Assembly: GCF_020005165.1 (NCBI RefSeq)
Contig: NZ_JAHCLT010000001.1
Location: 1,054,001 to 1,118,000, forward strand
DNA: 64,000 nt
Direction: 5' to 3'
Source of the DNA: Kangiella taiwanensis
Lineage (GTDB): Bacteria; Pseudomonadota; Gammaproteobacteria; Enterobacterales; Kangiellaceae
Each line of letters starts with the position of its first letter. Position 1 is the first letter of the stretch. The notes beneath the pieces are model-generated. The model ran no database searches and was not told the origin of the DNA. It saw only the letters and a program-made list of their open reading frames with translations. Below, piece by piece: positions 18,827 to 25,292 of the stretch. The translations under genes were made by a program, and so were the position numbers.

Positions 18827-18922
18827 CTCCCTGACTAGTGCAAGCCTGAGTTATACTAAGGTTGCTGATGTTGTAAAACGTTTGTGCTATTGTTTGGTCA
18901 CCCTCTAAGATTTCCAGTGATC

Positions 18923-20527
18923 ATGCGTACCATTTTTGTCATTTTAGTAGCGTTCATTTCGCTTCAGTCTTGCTTTTCTAATACTCGCAACCCTCACCAA
19001 GTAAACCAACCGAAGCTAGTGGTGTTTATCTCGATTGACCAGTGGCATCGAGATTTATTGGAGCGTTATCAGGAACATTATACCGGTGGCTTTAAAACCA
19101 TTTGGGAGGATAGTCGTTTTTACACCAATGCTTACCACGACCATGCCGCAACTTTAACCGGCCCAGGGCACTCAGTCTTACTTACTGGGGTATACCCAGC
19201 AAAAACGGGTATTACGGGCAACTATTTCTACGATCGTGAAGCTGAAGAAAAGCTCTATTGTGTCGAAGACCATCATAGTCGAGTGATTGGTTCCGATGGG
19301 GCGCTAGATGAAACCGGCGTGTCGCCCAAAAATCTTTTGGTTCCGACATTAGGTGATTTACTAAAAGACTCAAACCCAGACGCTAAAGTCTTCGCAGTAT
19401 CGGGGAAAGACCGCTCAGGTATTTTAATGGCGGGTAAAAAGGCCGACGGTGTTTATTGGTATGAGTCGTCAGTTGGGCAACTTGTGACATCCAGTTATTA
19501 TGAAGAAACGTTGCCAGATTTTATTCAGTCTTATAACTTGGCTAGTCCTGTTGACAAGTTTAACCCCAAAGCTTGGCGTCGATTAAAGGCCGAGTCGTTC
19601 TATCTTCAGTATTCCCGTCAGGATTTATTTGCTGGTGAGAAGCTTGTAGGAAACAAAAACTTCCCCTATCAATTGGCGACTAAGTCAAGCGATGACCGCT
19701 ACTTTTACTCTATGGTCAAACGAACACCTTTTGCTGATCAGTATATTTTAGATGCTGCAGAATACATTATTGATTCGCAAGATTTAGGGCTGGATGATGC
19801 CCCGGACTTGTTGGCGATTGGTTTGTCTGCAACTGACTATATTGGGCATACATGGGGGCCATATAGTCAGGAAGCTTTGGACCATATGCTCCGTTTGGAT
19901 CAGTCCTTGGGACAGTTTTTTGAGACATTAACACGGCAATTTGGACAAGATGTCGTGATCGCACTATCTGCGGATCATGGGGTACAACCATTACCTGAAT
20001 ATTTGGCACAGCAAGGTACGGATGCTCGTCGTATTCCGACAATGACACTTCTTGATGATATCGCTGCGATAGAGTCTAACCTCCGTTTTGAGTTTGGTTT
20101 CGATGAGCCGCTAATTGAGTTTAAAGAGGAGTCGTATCCTTTCTTTCATCTTAAGTTAACTCCTCAGCAGAAGCGTCGTTTTGCGGAGGAAGTAGAGAAG
20201 CTTGATTATATTGAGCGAGTGGTGATTGGTGACGAACTTGATACGTCGCAAGATGAAGTCTCTGGATACGTTGCTAAAGCTTATTACCAGCCTCGCTCAA
20301 GTGATATTTATTGGATCTATAAAGAAAACTATCTTGCCAACCGCAGTCTTGGAACAACTCATGGCTCTATCCATAAGTACGATCAGCATGTACCGATTGC
20401 CTTTATTGGCGGGGGACTGAAGCCAGCGCATGTTACGGAAAGCGTTAGTACTACTGATATTGCACCAACCTTAGCGCACATTCTTGGCATAGATTTTGAT
20501 CAATTTGATGGAAGCGCGTTGCCTTAA
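18923..20527 (+). CDS. Alkaline-phosphatase-superfamily lipoprotein (PafA/nucleotide pyrophosphatase type)
   Basis: 534 residues from ATG 18923. A lipoprotein signal with LQSC near residue 17 implies membrane attachment. The frame opens at GTG 18884, but that would bury the signal peptide. Alkaline phosphatase superfamily signs are VVFISIDQWHRD (first metal-binding Asp), the Thr nucleophile region HAATLTGPGHSVLLTG, ALSADHGVQPLP (metal Asp-His), and a late GTTHGSIHKYDQHVPI (metal His). The Thr nucleophile and spacing fit PafA-like monoesterases or type I phosphodiesterases. It would release phosphate from organic esters in the periplasm. The exact substrate is not readable. Confidence 0.9.
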   Translation: MRTIFVILVAFISLQSCFSNTRNPHQVNQPKLVVFISIDQWHRDLLERYQEHYTGGFKTIWEDSRFYTNAYHDHAATLTGPGHSVLLTGVYPAKTGITGNYFYDREAEEKLYCVEDHHSRVIGSDGALDETGVSPKNLLVPTLGDLLKDSNPDAKVFAVSGKDRSGILMAGKKADGVYWYESSVGQLVTSSYYEETLPDFIQSYNLASPVDKFNPKAWRRLKAESFYLQYSRQDLFAGEKLVGNKNFPYQLATKSSDDRYFYSMVKRTPFADQYILDAAEYIIDSQDLGLDDAPDLLAIGLSATDYIGHTWGPYSQEALDHMLRLDQSLGQFFETLTRQFGQDVVIALSADHGVQPLPEYLAQQGTDARRIPTMTLLDDIAAIESNLRFEFGFDEPLIEFKEESYPFFHLKLTPQQKRRFAEEVEKLDYIERVVIGDELDTSQDEVSGYVAKAYYQPRSSDIYWIYKENYLANRSLGTTHGSIHKYDQHVPIAFIGGGLKPAHVTESVSTTDIAPTLAHILGIDFDQFDGSALP

Positions 20528-20533
20528 GGGGGT

Positions 20534-20553
20534 TATACGGAAATTAGCGTATA
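20534..20553. promoter_or_regulatory. Operator copy 1 of 3
   Basis: TATACGGAAATTAGCGTATA, an imperfect palindrome with half-sites TATACG and CGTATA. First of three copies whose starts are exactly 28 bases apart. Confidence 0.7.
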
Positions 20554-20561
20554 CTTGATAT

Positions 20562-20581
20562 TATACGTAAAAAAGCGTATA
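20562..20581. promoter_or_regulatory. Operator copy 2 of 3
   Basis: TATACGTAAAAAAGCGTATA. Same outer half-sites as its neighbours, with a variable A-rich centre. Confidence 0.7.
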
Positions 20582-20589
20582 TTTGCTCA

Positions 20590-20609
20590 TATACGTAAAT
20601 TAGCGTATA
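20590..20609. promoter_or_regulatory. Operator copy 3 of 3
   Basis: TATACGTAAATTAGCGTATA, ending 18 bases before the ATG of the SatD-family gene. It is close enough to block its promoter or ribosome site region. Confidence 0.7.
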
Positions 20610-20627
20610 TTTACCGAGGCCAAGTTT

Positions 20628-21275
20628 ATGAATAATCAAGCCGGTCACTTTGAGAAAGAGCTTCCTCAAGTAGCCGTTATTACAGGCGATATCGTTAACT
20701 CGCAACAGAGTGAGCAGAGCCTTGAGTGGCTTTCAGTGTTGAAAGACTACTTATCACGGTATGGTGGTAGCCCCAAAGACTGGCAGGTATATCGAGGCGA
20801 TAGTTTTCAGTTGATAGTGTACCAACCAGAAGATGCTTTCCGCGTGGCTCTGCATCTAAAAGCCGTAATTAAACGCTTAAAAGATTTGGATGTGCGAATG
20901 GCGATCGGGGTCGGCACCCTAGAGCACCATGCTGATCAAGTGTTGCAATCGAATGGCGAAGCCTTCGTTTATTCGGGACGAAAGTTCGATTCTCTCAAAA
21001 AACAAACACTGGCTGTAAAAACTCCTTGGCAAGATGTCGATAAAGCGATTAACCTGTTGATCAAATTAGCGTTGTTAACAATCGATGATTGGCCTGAAAC
21101 CAGCGCTGACGTAGTTGCCGCGAGCTTAGAGCACCCGCAAGCAACACAAAAAGAAATAGCCGCGCTACTGTCTATTCCTCAAAGTCGGGTCAGTGAGCGC
21201 CTGTCGCGCGCAGGCTTCGACGCGATAAAGGATGTGGAGCGCTATTATCGCGAAGCGATATTAAAAAGATTATAG
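20628..21275 (+). CDS. SatD-family protein with C-terminal helix-turn-helix
   Basis: 215 residues. The N-terminal part (AVITGDIVNSQ, QVYRGDSFQLIV, RMAIGVG, GEAFVYSGR) matches the SatD family, named from the S. mutans sat operon, whose biochemical role is unsettled. Its strands and GD motifs resemble a nucleotide-cyclase-like fold (inference). Residues about 165-203 (KEIAALLSIPQSRVSERLSR) look like a sigma-region-4 or HTH DNA-binding segment. Three palindromic sites directly upstream make autoregulation likely. GAGG lies 9 bases before the ATG. It is 36 bases upstream of the DUF3307 gene, which is its frequent partner. Confidence 0.85.
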   Translation: MNNQAGHFEKELPQVAVITGDIVNSQQSEQSLEWLSVLKDYLSRYGGSPKDWQVYRGDSFQLIVYQPEDAFRVALHLKAVIKRLKDLDVRMAIGVGTLEHHADQVLQSNGEAFVYSGRKFDSLKKQTLAVKTPWQDVDKAINLLIKLALLTIDDWPETSADVVAASLEHPQATQKEIAALLSIPQSRVSERLSRAGFDAIKDVERYYREAILKRL

Positions 21276-21311: not shown

Positions 21312-22061
21312 ATGACCATATTATTATTAAAATTATTGATGGCACATTTAGTCGCTGACTTTCTAATCCAACCACTTTCTTGGATTAAGGATAAGGAGCA
21401 GAAAGCTTTTGTCTCGAAAAAGCTGATCTGGCACTCCTTGGTTCATGCGCTGTTATACGCTATGGCTTTTGCTTTTGCGCCACAATACTGGCTGGGTTGG
21501 TTGATTTTGGTGGTATCGCATTACCTGATTGATGGCTTGAAATCGATTTGTCATCGTTCTGTGGTACAGGATAAATCGTTATTCTTTAACCGTCGTAGCT
21601 TATTCATCATTGACCAATTACTACATATCACCATTATTTTTGCAGTAGTCGGCTATTACTTCCCAGACCTATATCAAGTATCTTTTAACCTAGAGCAGTT
21701 ATGGTTACTGGCGATTGCTCTGTTATTGCTGACCAGAGTATCGTCTATCGTTATCAAGGTGCTCATTTCACGTTGGACGCCGCTGAATGTCGATGATCCT
21801 GGAAAAACTAACCATTCATTGGCGAATGCTGGAAGTTATATAGGCTTTTTAGAGCGGTTGTTTATTTTCGTGTTTATCGTGACTAACCACTGGGAAGGGG
21901 TTGGTTTTCTTCTTGCCGCGAAATCAGTCTTTCGATTTGGCGATCTGAAAGAAGCTCATGACCGCCGTTTAACCGAATACATCTTGATTGGAACCTTGAT
22001 CAGCTTTGGTTTGGCCATCGCTATCAGTTTAGGTTATGTCTATTTCAAAGCTCTGGTTTAA
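21312..22061 (+). CDS. DUF3307 integral membrane protein
   Basis: 249 residues with about six hydrophobic helices. The conserved N-terminal DUF3307 stretch is LLKLLMAHLVADFLIQP, followed by HSLVHALLYA and SHYLIDGLK. These contain His and Asp residues within or near helices that could bind a metal or carry out catalysis (family function unknown). It is co-oriented with the SatD-family gene, and AGGGTAGG precedes the ATG. The stop overlaps the convergent gene's stop by 4 bases. Confidence 0.86.
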   Translation: MTILLLKLLMAHLVADFLIQPLSWIKDKEQKAFVSKKLIWHSLVHALLYAMAFAFAPQYWLGWLILVVSHYLIDGLKSICHRSVVQDKSLFFNRRSLFIIDQLLHITIIFAVVGYYFPDLYQVSFNLEQLWLLAIALLLLTRVSSIVIKVLISRWTPLNVDDPGKTNHSLANAGSYIGFLERLFIFVFIVTNHWEGVGFLLAAKSVFRFGDLKEAHDRRLTEYILIGTLISFGLAIAISLGYVYFKALV

Positions 22062-23138: not shown

Positions 23139-25292
23139 ATGAATACATTGTTTACTGGCGGTTTATCGCTTAAGAAAGTGTTGGTCGCTTCGCTTGTTTG
23201 GGGATTGATTCTTACTGGGTGCTCAGACTCAGAGAAAAAAAGTACAGCGAAGCCAAGTTTTGATGTCGAGAAATTAACTCAGAGTGCTTGGTTATATAGT
23301 GCTTTGCCCGAAAACACCGTGGCTTACGCGCGAGTGCCTAACCCTTGGGCGGGCTTTTCAGCTAAAGACGATAGCTTCAAGTATGCTCTTGGTAACGAAC
23401 ATCACGTGAAAGCTGTTAAGCAGATCCAGAAAGGGGTGCATGACAATATCATTAGCCATCTAGGGGATGAGGTTAAGCCTTTAGCGCAGTTTTATGTGGA
23501 GCATACCAAAGGGCCCGTGGAACTGGCATTCGTTAGTCAAAATGGCCAGCCAGTAGTATTTGTGGGGACGCGTTTAGATTATAGCGATGACAAAAGCTTC
23601 AATGCGGGTTTTTCTGAGCTGGTAAAAAATATACCGAATGCTAACGTGATGCCCCAAGAAGGCGAAGCCAAAGGCATCGTGAGCTTTGGTAGAGGCGCTG
23701 CGGTGTATTACCGTTATAACTCGAGTGAGCAACAGTTGTTGTTAATTAGCGGCATGGGAACGTCTGTGACTAGCCTTGAGAATGCCGCCTCGACTATCAA
23801 GCCAAATCAAAAACATGAAATGCTAAAGCTAGAAGGGGACATAGATTCCAGCCATGAAGGTTTATTCTTCTGGGCAAGTCCGAAGAATGCCCTGCCGTTT
23901 ATGCAAATGGGCATGCAGCCACAGCAACTAGCAAAGCTAAAAGAGCTTGGCTTTGATAAAGCGGAAGGTGTTGCGTTCGGTTACGGCGTCAGTGGCGGTA
24001 AGACGCGTTTAAAGCTACTGCTGGATATGCCGATTGACGATCAGAACCGTTACCTTCCAGCTGTCAGCAATACTATTAATGTTAAATCGGTTGGTACACC
24101 AAAATGGGCTTCTGTTATTTCGATTCCAACCGCTGAGCAAAGTGAAAAACTTATCACTAAGCTCTATGAGGCTGGAGTAGAAGATGTGCAGTCTTGGCAG
24201 GATATCAATACCGGCATGGAAAAAGAGATTGGGTTGAGTTTAGAGACATTACTCAATACCTTTGGGCCAGAAGTGACCTTTTTCAGTGACAAGGTTGGTA
24301 TGTTTGCAGCCGTTAGTTATAACGAAGGCAGCATAGATGCTTTGCTTAAGAAAGCTCGAGAATCAGTAGAAGTCGAATACAAAACGTATTCTAAAAATTC
24401 AACGGAAATACACCACCTGTCGATAGCAGCTCTTGGCGGAGCTAATGATTTTGATAGTCAGTCGAATGGAGAGTCAAAACTCCCTGTTGCTTTAATGAAA
24501 AACTATCACGAAAACATTTTTTGGGTAGTTGAGGGAGGCCAGGTGATTTTTGCATCTGTTCCACAGCTACTATTGGAGAGGCAGGAGCGCGGTGCCGACA
24601 CGTCTATTGGTGACTGGCTAAAAAGCCAACAGGGTTATAATCCAGAAGGGACTTTGCTTGGATTCTCGTCATCAGTTGACGGCTTATCACGAAGCAGTTA
24701 CCACTATTACCTTGAGTTGTTAATGATTCTATCGGATTTGACGGGTGCGGATGTAGATTTACTGTCTTTCCCTACGGCTAATCAGCTAGGGTTCCCTGAA
24801 AAAGGTGCGATCAGTTTTGGCTTACGTTCAGACAAGAGCATCTTAGGTTTGGAGTTTGCGTTTGAGAATGGTGGCACTGACCTACTACACGGTCTTGGCT
24901 CAACTAGCTCAATTGCGGTTATCGGTATCTTGGCCGCTGTTGCAATACCGGCTTATCAAGACTATACCGTAAGAGCTCAAATGTCTGCTGCGACTTATGC
25001 CGCTGAAGCTGTGAAGGTGCAAATTACGCAGGCTTTGATGCTGGGTGCTAAGGTTGAGGATTTGGACAATGGCTATGAAAGTATTCAAGCAGCAGAAGAA
25101 TACGAAAACTCATTGATTGAGAAGATTGTGGTCAATGATGGTGTGATTACCATGTTCTTCAAGAATGAACGCTTGGGTTATGGTCCCCAGACTTTGGTCT
25201 ATGTCCCGATGTTTGATGGCGACCGAATTAGTTACTGGGATTGTACTGGCGGTACTGTCGCAGAAAAGTATCGACCGGTTCAGTGTAGATAG
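23139..25292 (+). CDS. Lipoprotein with C-terminal type IV pilin-like domain
   Basis: 717 residues. A lipoprotein signal with lipobox LTGC (Cys 28) is followed by about 560 residues of an unrecognised periplasmic domain resembling a duplicated alpha/beta fold. Residues 592-717 are unmistakably pilin-like. The helix IAVIGILAAVAIPAYQDYTV and MSAATYAAEAVK match the first helix of PilA. The tail (Cys 702 and Cys 716, WDCTGGTVAEKYRP) matches the PilA disulfide loop. The prepilin peptidase site (GFTLIE) is replaced by GSTSS, so it cannot be processed as a pilin. AGAGGA precedes the ATG. A bidirectional terminator follows. A natural gene fusion is the simplest reading. Confidence 0.85.
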   Translation: MNTLFTGGLSLKKVLVASLVWGLILTGCSDSEKKSTAKPSFDVEKLTQSAWLYSALPENTVAYARVPNPWAGFSAKDDSFKYALGNEHHVKAVKQIQKGVHDNIISHLGDEVKPLAQFYVEHTKGPVELAFVSQNGQPVVFVGTRLDYSDDKSFNAGFSELVKNIPNANVMPQEGEAKGIVSFGRGAAVYYRYNSSEQQLLLISGMGTSVTSLENAASTIKPNQKHEMLKLEGDIDSSHEGLFFWASPKNALPFMQMGMQPQQLAKLKELGFDKAEGVAFGYGVSGGKTRLKLLLDMPIDDQNRYLPAVSNTINVKSVGTPKWASVISIPTAEQSEKLITKLYEAGVEDVQSWQDINTGMEKEIGLSLETLLNTFGPEVTFFSDKVGMFAAVSYNEGSIDALLKKARESVEVEYKTYSKNSTEIHHLSIAALGGANDFDSQSNGESKLPVALMKNYHENIFWVVEGGQVIFASVPQLLLERQERGADTSIGDWLKSQQGYNPEGTLLGFSSSVDGLSRSSYHYYLELLMILSDLTGADVDLLSFPTANQLGFPEKGAISFGLRSDKSILGLEFAFENGGTDLLHGLGSTSSIAVIGILAAVAIPAYQDYTVRAQMSAATYAAEAVKVQITQALMLGAKVEDLDNGYESIQAAEEYENSLIEKIVVNDGVITMFFKNERLGYGPQTLVYVPMFDGDRISYWDCTGGTVAEKYRPVQCR

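Follow-up and report, generated by a model that had tools for sequence, protein, structure and literature searches.

The window analysed here is a stretch of 64,000 nucleotides from Kangiella taiwanensis, and its part of interest holds three copies of a 20-bp palindrome, a gene of the SatD family and a gene for a DUF3307 membrane protein, which are listed with their positions in Table 1. On the upstream side the array is bordered by a gene for a PafA-like alkaline phosphatase/phosphodiesterase (18884-20527, +; NF042991 376 bits, below the cut-off of 650), whose stop codon is 6 bases ahead of operator 1. Downstream of the DUF3307 gene, the window also encodes a 717-aa protein (23139-25292, +) with a lipoprotein-like start and a C-terminal pilin domain (PF00114, 1.5e-9, residues 611-717), the long N-terminal part of which has no Pfam match at E<=0.01.

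Table 1. Features of the satD locus, in positions of the window, and the basis of each assignment
Feature	Position	Strand	Sequence	Basis or remark
Operator 1	20534..20553	no strand	TATACGGAAATTAGCGTATA	exact palindrome match; pitch kept in relatives
-35 element	20555..20560	+	TTGATA	promoter consensus match; in the spacer separating operators 1 and 2
Operator 2	20562..20581	no strand	TATACGTAAAAAAGCGTATA	exact match; sits between the -35 and the overlapped -10
-10 element	20578..20583	+	TATATT	promoter consensus match; overlaps the right half-site of operator 2
Operator 3	20590..20609	no strand	TATACGTAAATTAGCGTATA	exact palindrome match
satD, 215 aa	20628..21275	+		predicted N-terminal nucleotidyl-cyclase-like domain and C-terminal HTH; PF16264, AlphaFold2, Foldseek
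Cyclase-like (palm) domain, residues 12-131	20661..21020	+		predicted fold match to Ma1120 adenylyl cyclase
Metal-ligand candidates D21 and D58	20688-20690 and 20799-20801	+		conservation across SatD loci
Helix-turn-helix, residues 174-194	21147..21209	+		model helices 174-181 and 185-194
HTH residues 184, 186, 187, 190	21177-21197	+		four top covarying columns of 188
DUF3307 multi-pass membrane protein	21312..22061	+		PF11750 1.6e-26; partner gene

A motif scan of the window found TATACGN8CGTATA in three copies, each with 0 mismatches, at a pitch of 28 bp. An earlier note on this DNA had put the palindrome starts at 20534, 20562 and 20590, exactly 28 bases apart, with 18 bases between the end of the last copy and the satD ATG, and the exact matches confirm all of these figures. 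The same note called the operators phased. They are evenly spaced, with one half-site every 14 bp in alternation, but 28 bp amounts to 2.67 helical turns and successive operators therefore do not lie on one face of the DNA. At up to two mismatches the motif is unremarkable, because shuffled versions of the window yield about 2 matches; what is remarkable is the presence of three exact copies at one pitch. Genome-wide (2.56 Mb), the exact motif occurs only as the three copies of the array, and an operator with a single mismatch occurs at one further place (C2:431950). The best promoter of the window by consensus match consists of TTGATA (20555), a 17-bp spacer and TATATT (20578). A search of a plasmid collection with the array region found no DNA match.

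The SatD family (PF16264) is named after the sat operon of Streptococcus mutans, and the window protein matches it above the Pfam cut-off (32.6 bits against 29, residues 18-196 on positions 4-196 of the 211-position model), as do 15 of the 16 further aligned relatives when the limit is set at E<=0.1, a level that the window protein also reaches. Its C-terminus resembles Sigma70_r4 (4.9e-5, 23.2 bits, slightly under the cut-off of 24.1), so the description of a SatD-family gene with a C-terminal HTH-like segment stands. In the AlphaFold2 model of SatD (pLDDT 79.5, with low confidence at residues 100-125), the top Foldseek match in the PDB is 4wp9_A, the Mycobacterium avium protein Ma1120 (E 6.2e-4, probability 1.00, TM 0.41/0.51). 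Only two PDB matches fall at E<=0.001, out of 735 at E<=10, and both are the Ma1120 class III adenylyl cyclase; they are followed by guanylate cyclase, GGDEF domains and Csm palm domains. Sequence searches for a relation between SatD and cyclases gave no match, and GGDEF_2 of Pfam was matched below threshold (0.038).

Two aspartates stand out in this domain. Among the 186 loci that bear an array (described below), D21 is kept in 185 and D58 in all 186, and among the remaining 30 loci they are kept in 26 and 27, respectively. By their places, in strand 1 and in the hairpin that follows, they are candidates for the metal ligands of class III cyclases. Of the 186 proteins, 69 have R and 79 have E at residue 118, and K131 varies; both positions are tentative candidates for base-selecting or transition-state sites. 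The prediction for the N-terminal domain of SatD is thus a nucleotidyl-cyclase/palm fold in which two Asp residues are near-invariant. The earlier suggestion of a putative nucleotide-binding domain in the regulator chain fits this predicted fold, and we infer a nucleotide as the ligand itself. In the plasmid collection, SatD was found in 7 records, every one at less than 60% identity.

The gene that follows satD does encode a DUF3307 membrane protein, as had been claimed (Table 1), and the arrangement is general, in that a DUF3307 gene lies directly downstream of satD on the same strand and within 300 nt at 212 of 216 SatD loci. The model of the window protein (pLDDT 89.1, pTM 0.66) is predicted to be a helical membrane protein, and in an alignment of 20 members the invariant residues include H12, D16, Q20, H41, H70, D74, K77, D101, Q102, H105, E181, R182, K204, R208, E222 and Y223. 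These residues could form a polar, possibly metal-binding site within the membrane protein. Searches of the PDB gave no fold match at E<=0.001 for the model and no sequence match, no second Pfam family was matched by more than one of the 20 members, and tblastn of the window protein against a phage collection gave no match.

Within the genus, a SatD orthologue is present in 14 of 20 genomes (the window genome included; 2 of the 20 are less than 90% complete), and it is present in 0 of 20 other genomes of the family Kangiellaceae. Two Kangiella records hold orthologues at 86% and 70% identity. The upstream regions in the genus mostly carry TATACG half-sites or near variants, one per 14 bp, and 13 of 15 Kangiella loci (one genome counted twice) lie above the array threshold defined below, the exceptions being L016, which is slightly below it, and L018, whose best chain is at 30 bp. 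The promoter keeps its place as well: 9 of 14 Kangiella loci, among them that of the window, have the -35 at +21 from the start of operator 1 and a spacer of 17 bp; at L010 and L017 a promoter was detected and the scored sites differ, at L008 and L011 no promoter was detected because the -10 is too weak for the criterion, and L018 differs.

A Polaribacter locus (L021) with a 49% identical SatD carries three identical copies of another palindrome, TATCTGCCTGAGAGCAGATA, also at a pitch of 28 bp, and we therefore surveyed its phylum. PF16264 alone was too weak for this survey, since it missed the window genome, so an alignment (A1) was used as the query. The survey detected SatD in 94 of 395 genomes sampled from the phylum Bacteroidota and in 116 of 199 genomes from the family of L021, a draw that overlaps the phylum draw. 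The existing loci together with 140 further upstream regions gave 216 SatD loci in all, mostly from Bacteroidota. L019 and L030 had been removed as duplicates of L006 and L021, and L012 is the same locus as L020 with both kept, so the 216 include one known duplicate; L023-L025 had no match with the alignment model and were examined separately, and two weak survey matches (G503, an 835-aa frame, and G889, E 1e-3) lie outside the sample.

With 41 pitches tested (20-60 bp) at each of the 216 loci, the best pitch was 28 in 134, 29 in 43 and 56 in 7, and in shuffled loci no single pitch was best in more than 12. A stricter chain score found arrays of 20-bp palindromes at 28 or 29 bp in 186 of the 216 loci, with three sites in 127, four in 32, two in 21 and five or six in 6. 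The array threshold (8.2) was set on shuffles at pitch 28, as their 99th percentile. The first chain count took the best of six pitches at each real locus, and a control on real DNA, in which other stretches of the same loci were scored at pitches 28 and 29 with the same threshold, gave arrays in 0 of 213 and 0 of 215. The number of loci at pitch 28 is 139 or 140, as one locus lies exactly at the threshold. By score to the query model, arrays are present in 131 of 134 Bacteroidota loci at 160-300, 22 of 27 at 100-160, 9 of 24 at 60-100 and 8 of 10 below 60, which with L021 at a higher score makes 171 of 196. The 30 loci without an array above threshold include a GC-rich Bacteroidota group with a longer SatD. 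In one set of mostly GC-rich loci (L128-L131, L134, L136, L138-L143 and L145), SatD is longer with a different-looking C-terminal end, the DUF3307 gene is kept downstream and no array exceeds the threshold.

Eight remote SatD loci come from other Pseudomonadota, and five of them entered the 216. The best repeat is a palindrome pair at 29 bp in L024 and at 28 bp in L026, L027 and L028, three sites at 28 bp in L025, and in L023 a 29-bp palindrome pair tied with a 35-bp one; in L022 and L029 the best repeat is not at 28 or 29 bp, with L029 showing a weak 28-bp pair in the pitch scan. Under the strict score just two of the five included loci pass, L028 and, exactly at the threshold, L027. In L025 the palindromes are of a TTGACCC type and continue at the 28-bp pitch up to and beyond the chosen start codon, so that the true start may be further in. 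The longest array seen is that of L116 (G599:C17:70472-70839), with 13 operators at 29 bp, the last of which ends 39 bp before the start codon. Identical 20-mers occur in 17 of the 186 arrays, which suggests that arrays may be renewed by tandem duplication. One genome, G675, has two separate SatD loci (L114 and L122, the latter below threshold) with similar half-sites of the ATCAAC type, which lends no support to the notion that the SatDs of a genome with two copies would each keep an operator of their own; the two copies may cross-regulate. The check for the same array upstream of SatD/DUF3307 orthologues thus turned out positive for the majority of the Kangiella and Bacteroidota loci and for several distant loci of other Pseudomonadota, and the palindrome array, seen across two phyla, characterises a large part of the SatD family.

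The operators appear to serve a single target. An exact search of G437 with its operator finds the array and one stray site, and in G599 the exact operators are 11 of 11 in the array, so that in these two genomes and the window's the operator is all but confined to its own operon. The candidate binding sites also overlap the operon's own promoter, by consensus match in the 9 of 14 Kangiella loci described above and often in Bacteroidota. For the latter we used TAnnTTTG, which we take to be the consensus of the promoter element; among the 172 arrays scored as Bacteroidota (171 Bacteroidota loci plus one Kangiella locus, L012), 65 are overlapped by this element and another 22 have it no more than 60 bp downstream, compared with 13 of 172 for shuffles. 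Single-target operators and a promoter inside the array together point to autorepression.

Next we consider whether the letters of the operator follow the protein. The covariation set comprised 173 of the 186 loci, the 13 loci with a consensus that does not start with TAT being left out. There are 31 different half-site hexamers among the 173, and letters 4-6 vary widely; a parsimony count on a quick tree built from the remainder of the protein (173 proteins) puts the operator changes at about 70, a number to which errors in operator calling add. When the trinucleotide of letters 4-6 was compared with 188 protein columns, ranks 1-4 went to E190, R187, S186 and P184 (window numbering), in a ranking that ignores relatedness. 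Residues 186, 187 and 190 lie inside the recognition helix of the C-terminal HTH, and 184 lies at its start. For single letters some columns outside the helix also rank high: R118 takes second place for letter 4, A199 and S59 come third and fourth for letter 5, and A178 and P156 do so for letter 6.

The pair of residues at 187 and 190 goes with the trinucleotide in a manner that is close to a code: RE goes with ACG in 12/14, SE with CGG in 10/12, NE with CTG in 9/10, TE with CGT in 8/9, AR with TAC in 10/11, NK with TAC in 3/3 and AQ with AAG or TAG in 28/29, and weaker pairs are NQ with TAG (10/15) and AK with TCC (9/16). Two comparisons served to control for relatedness. In the first, on 74 disjoint sister-like pairs of proteins (body identity 0.50-0.97), residues 187/190 differ in 22 of the 34 pairs with different operators vs 5 of the 40 with equal ones (Fisher p 3e-6). 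Ranked by this sister-pair test among 215 columns, 190 is first, 184 fifth, 187 seventh and 186 twelfth, and their rank sum has a chance probability of 3e-6 for positions that had been picked beforehand on the same loci; the other eight columns of the top twelve (143, 75, 140, 213, 162, 178, 146 and 122) are outside the recognition helix. In the second, among pairs of proteins below 40% body identity, the same residues at 187 and 190 go with the same operator in 101 of 283, compared with 390 of 5554 for the others. Predicting the exact trinucleotide from the helix, with proteins above 50% body identity left out, was right for 59 of 173, where a majority guess gives 34. Tree-based tests on independent pairs went in the same direction, with the operator almost never going the opposite way, and the supported pairs were too few for significance. 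Covariation, residue-pair table and sister pairs thus lend statistical support to the HTH of SatD setting the sequence of its own operator.

We also considered whether the change of pitch from 28 to 29 is tied to a shortening by 2 residues between residues 155 and 174. The counts are suggestive, in that this linker has 20 residues in 120 of 128 loci at pitch 28 and 18 residues in 27 of 45 at pitch 29; this link is not claimed, because the tree shows just 3 changes of linker length, and 21 of the 173 loci do not fit.

Because the operator letters covary with the SatD recognition helix, the regulator is most likely SatD itself, binding its own array and repressing the satD-DUF3307 operon. On the sequence evidence, the claim of an autoregulated two-gene system is supported by the conservation of the array as well as by this covariation. 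That some different transcription factor reads the array, with SatD merely one of its regulated genes, is a reading that autoregulation deduced from sequence leaves some room for, but it is very improbable given that the operator letters follow SatD's own recognition-helix residues and that the operator is almost absent elsewhere in the three genomes searched. We give even less credence to the repeats being a partition, replication or recombination site of the iteron or parS kind rather than an operator; regular tandem palindromes do look like iterons and some arrays resemble recent tandem duplications, but the arrays stand upstream of satD, overlap a promoter in many loci of two phyla and have letters that covary with an HTH. 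SatD could also bind the array and activate, or switch between activation and repression, and arrays such as the 13 sites of L116 are far longer than simple repression needs; we regard this as unlikely, though not as remote as the two preceding readings, because the Kangiella operators overlap the -35/-10 region and TAnnTTTG overlaps many of the arrays scored as Bacteroidota.

One version of the autorepressor explanation goes further and makes SatD and DUF3307 a toxin-antitoxin-like or abortive-defence pair, in which SatD would hold a harmful membrane protein off until a nucleotide changes in stress or infection. The tight linkage of the two genes, the patchy presence of SatD in the genus and the invariant His and Asp residues of the predicted helical membrane protein would all suit such a pair. 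For Streptococcus pyogenes, moreover, PMC11323703 reports satD, present in 178 of 249 genomes, as the one accessory gene whose essentiality score falls in the top quarter, and an accessory yet essential satD is what one would expect of a repressor guarding a harmful partner, a reading that is ours and not that paper's. Against it, PADLOC 2.0.0, a collection of models for anti-phage defence, gave 0 families at E<=1 for SatD and the DUF3307 protein, and the sensor-like domain of SatD would be unusual among antitoxins. We regard such a pair as a serious possibility, though one somewhat more likely to be wrong than right.

Our preferred reading, which we hold with considerable confidence, is that SatD is a self-regulating repressor of a two-gene operon, that of satD and the DUF3307 gene. 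The array and its conservation, the promoter overlap, the covariation with the HTH and the tight DUF3307 linkage are supported by the sequences, and from there we infer repression over activation, dimers, cooperativity, a nucleotide signal, a harmful or costly DUF3307 and the role of that protein, as follows. The C-terminal HTH would bind each 20-bp palindrome as a dimer, and about three SatD dimers in a row, spaced at 28-29 bp, would cover the promoter, presumably cooperatively, and shut off satD and the DUF3307 gene. The N-terminal domain, with its predicted cyclase fold, most likely binds (or makes) a nucleotide, and this nucleotide event would release or remodel the DNA-bound row of SatD so that DUF3307, which may be harmful or costly, is made when needed. 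Having essentially a single target would leave operator letters and recognition helix free to drift together, and a SatD that has no other sites holding its specificity would explain the many operator sequences on one fixed ruler.

A broader proposal, which we advance only tentatively and think somewhat more apt to fail than to hold, is that SatD-DUF3307 is an unrecognised, widespread nucleotide-signalling operon. The palm active site would make or bind a nucleotide, the cyclase-fold protein would assemble over its own promoter on a ruler of 14-bp half-sites (4/3 of a DNA turn per subunit) and control an intramembrane enzyme or other membrane effector, and the helices with their operators would form a natural set of mutually distinct pairs on one scaffold.

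SatD resembles the class III nucleotidyl cyclases (M. avium Ma1120, PDB 4wp9) in its predicted fold and in having Asp at two fitting places, but it differs from them in having no sequence-level match, in being fused to a DNA-reading HTH and in that R118, one candidate for the transition-state Arg, is not conserved. Regulators of the PucR/CdaR type and the actinobacterial cyclase-LuxR regulators, like SatD, join a nucleotide-fold domain (GGDEF-like or cyclase) and an HTH in one chain, but their HTH is different from that of SatD, and we know of no tandem operator array of fixed pitch for either. The Aca proteins (PMC8434428, PMC9410906) are likewise small HTH proteins that act as single-target autorepressors controlling their own operon, whereas the opening lines of their abstracts say nothing of a cyclase fold or of palindromes evenly spaced across phyla. 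Co-evolution studies of IclR (PMC8222616) and LacI (PMC4052901), as far as the excerpts go, share the comparative inference of binding motifs and regulators, but they concern families with many regulons, while SatD would be a one-target autoregulator with a fixed multi-site ruler. In the literature excerpts on SatD itself, it appears as an acid-tolerance gene (a label it carries in PMC10326533) or as an unstudied one, with no HTH, operator array or cyclase fold mentioned there, and DUF3307 appears as a label on a phage ORF in PMC8504454. Among the matches listed in the open-access literature, there was no account of a SatD array, an operator code or a cyclase fold.

In substance the earlier note was right, and the finding goes beyond it, being an operator ruler across two phyla whose letters and the recognition helix of SatD appear to co-evolve. 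Both SatD and DUF3307 are common in Bacteroidota and unexplained, and their function now becomes testable, since a likely DNA target can be named in about 185 loci together with the residues that seem to read the operator and a likely sensor site. With some 70 operator changes at nearly fixed geometry, the family offers a clean case of regulator-operator co-evolution, which bears on how DNA specificity evolves and supplies distinct repressor-operator pairs that laboratory circuits could use.
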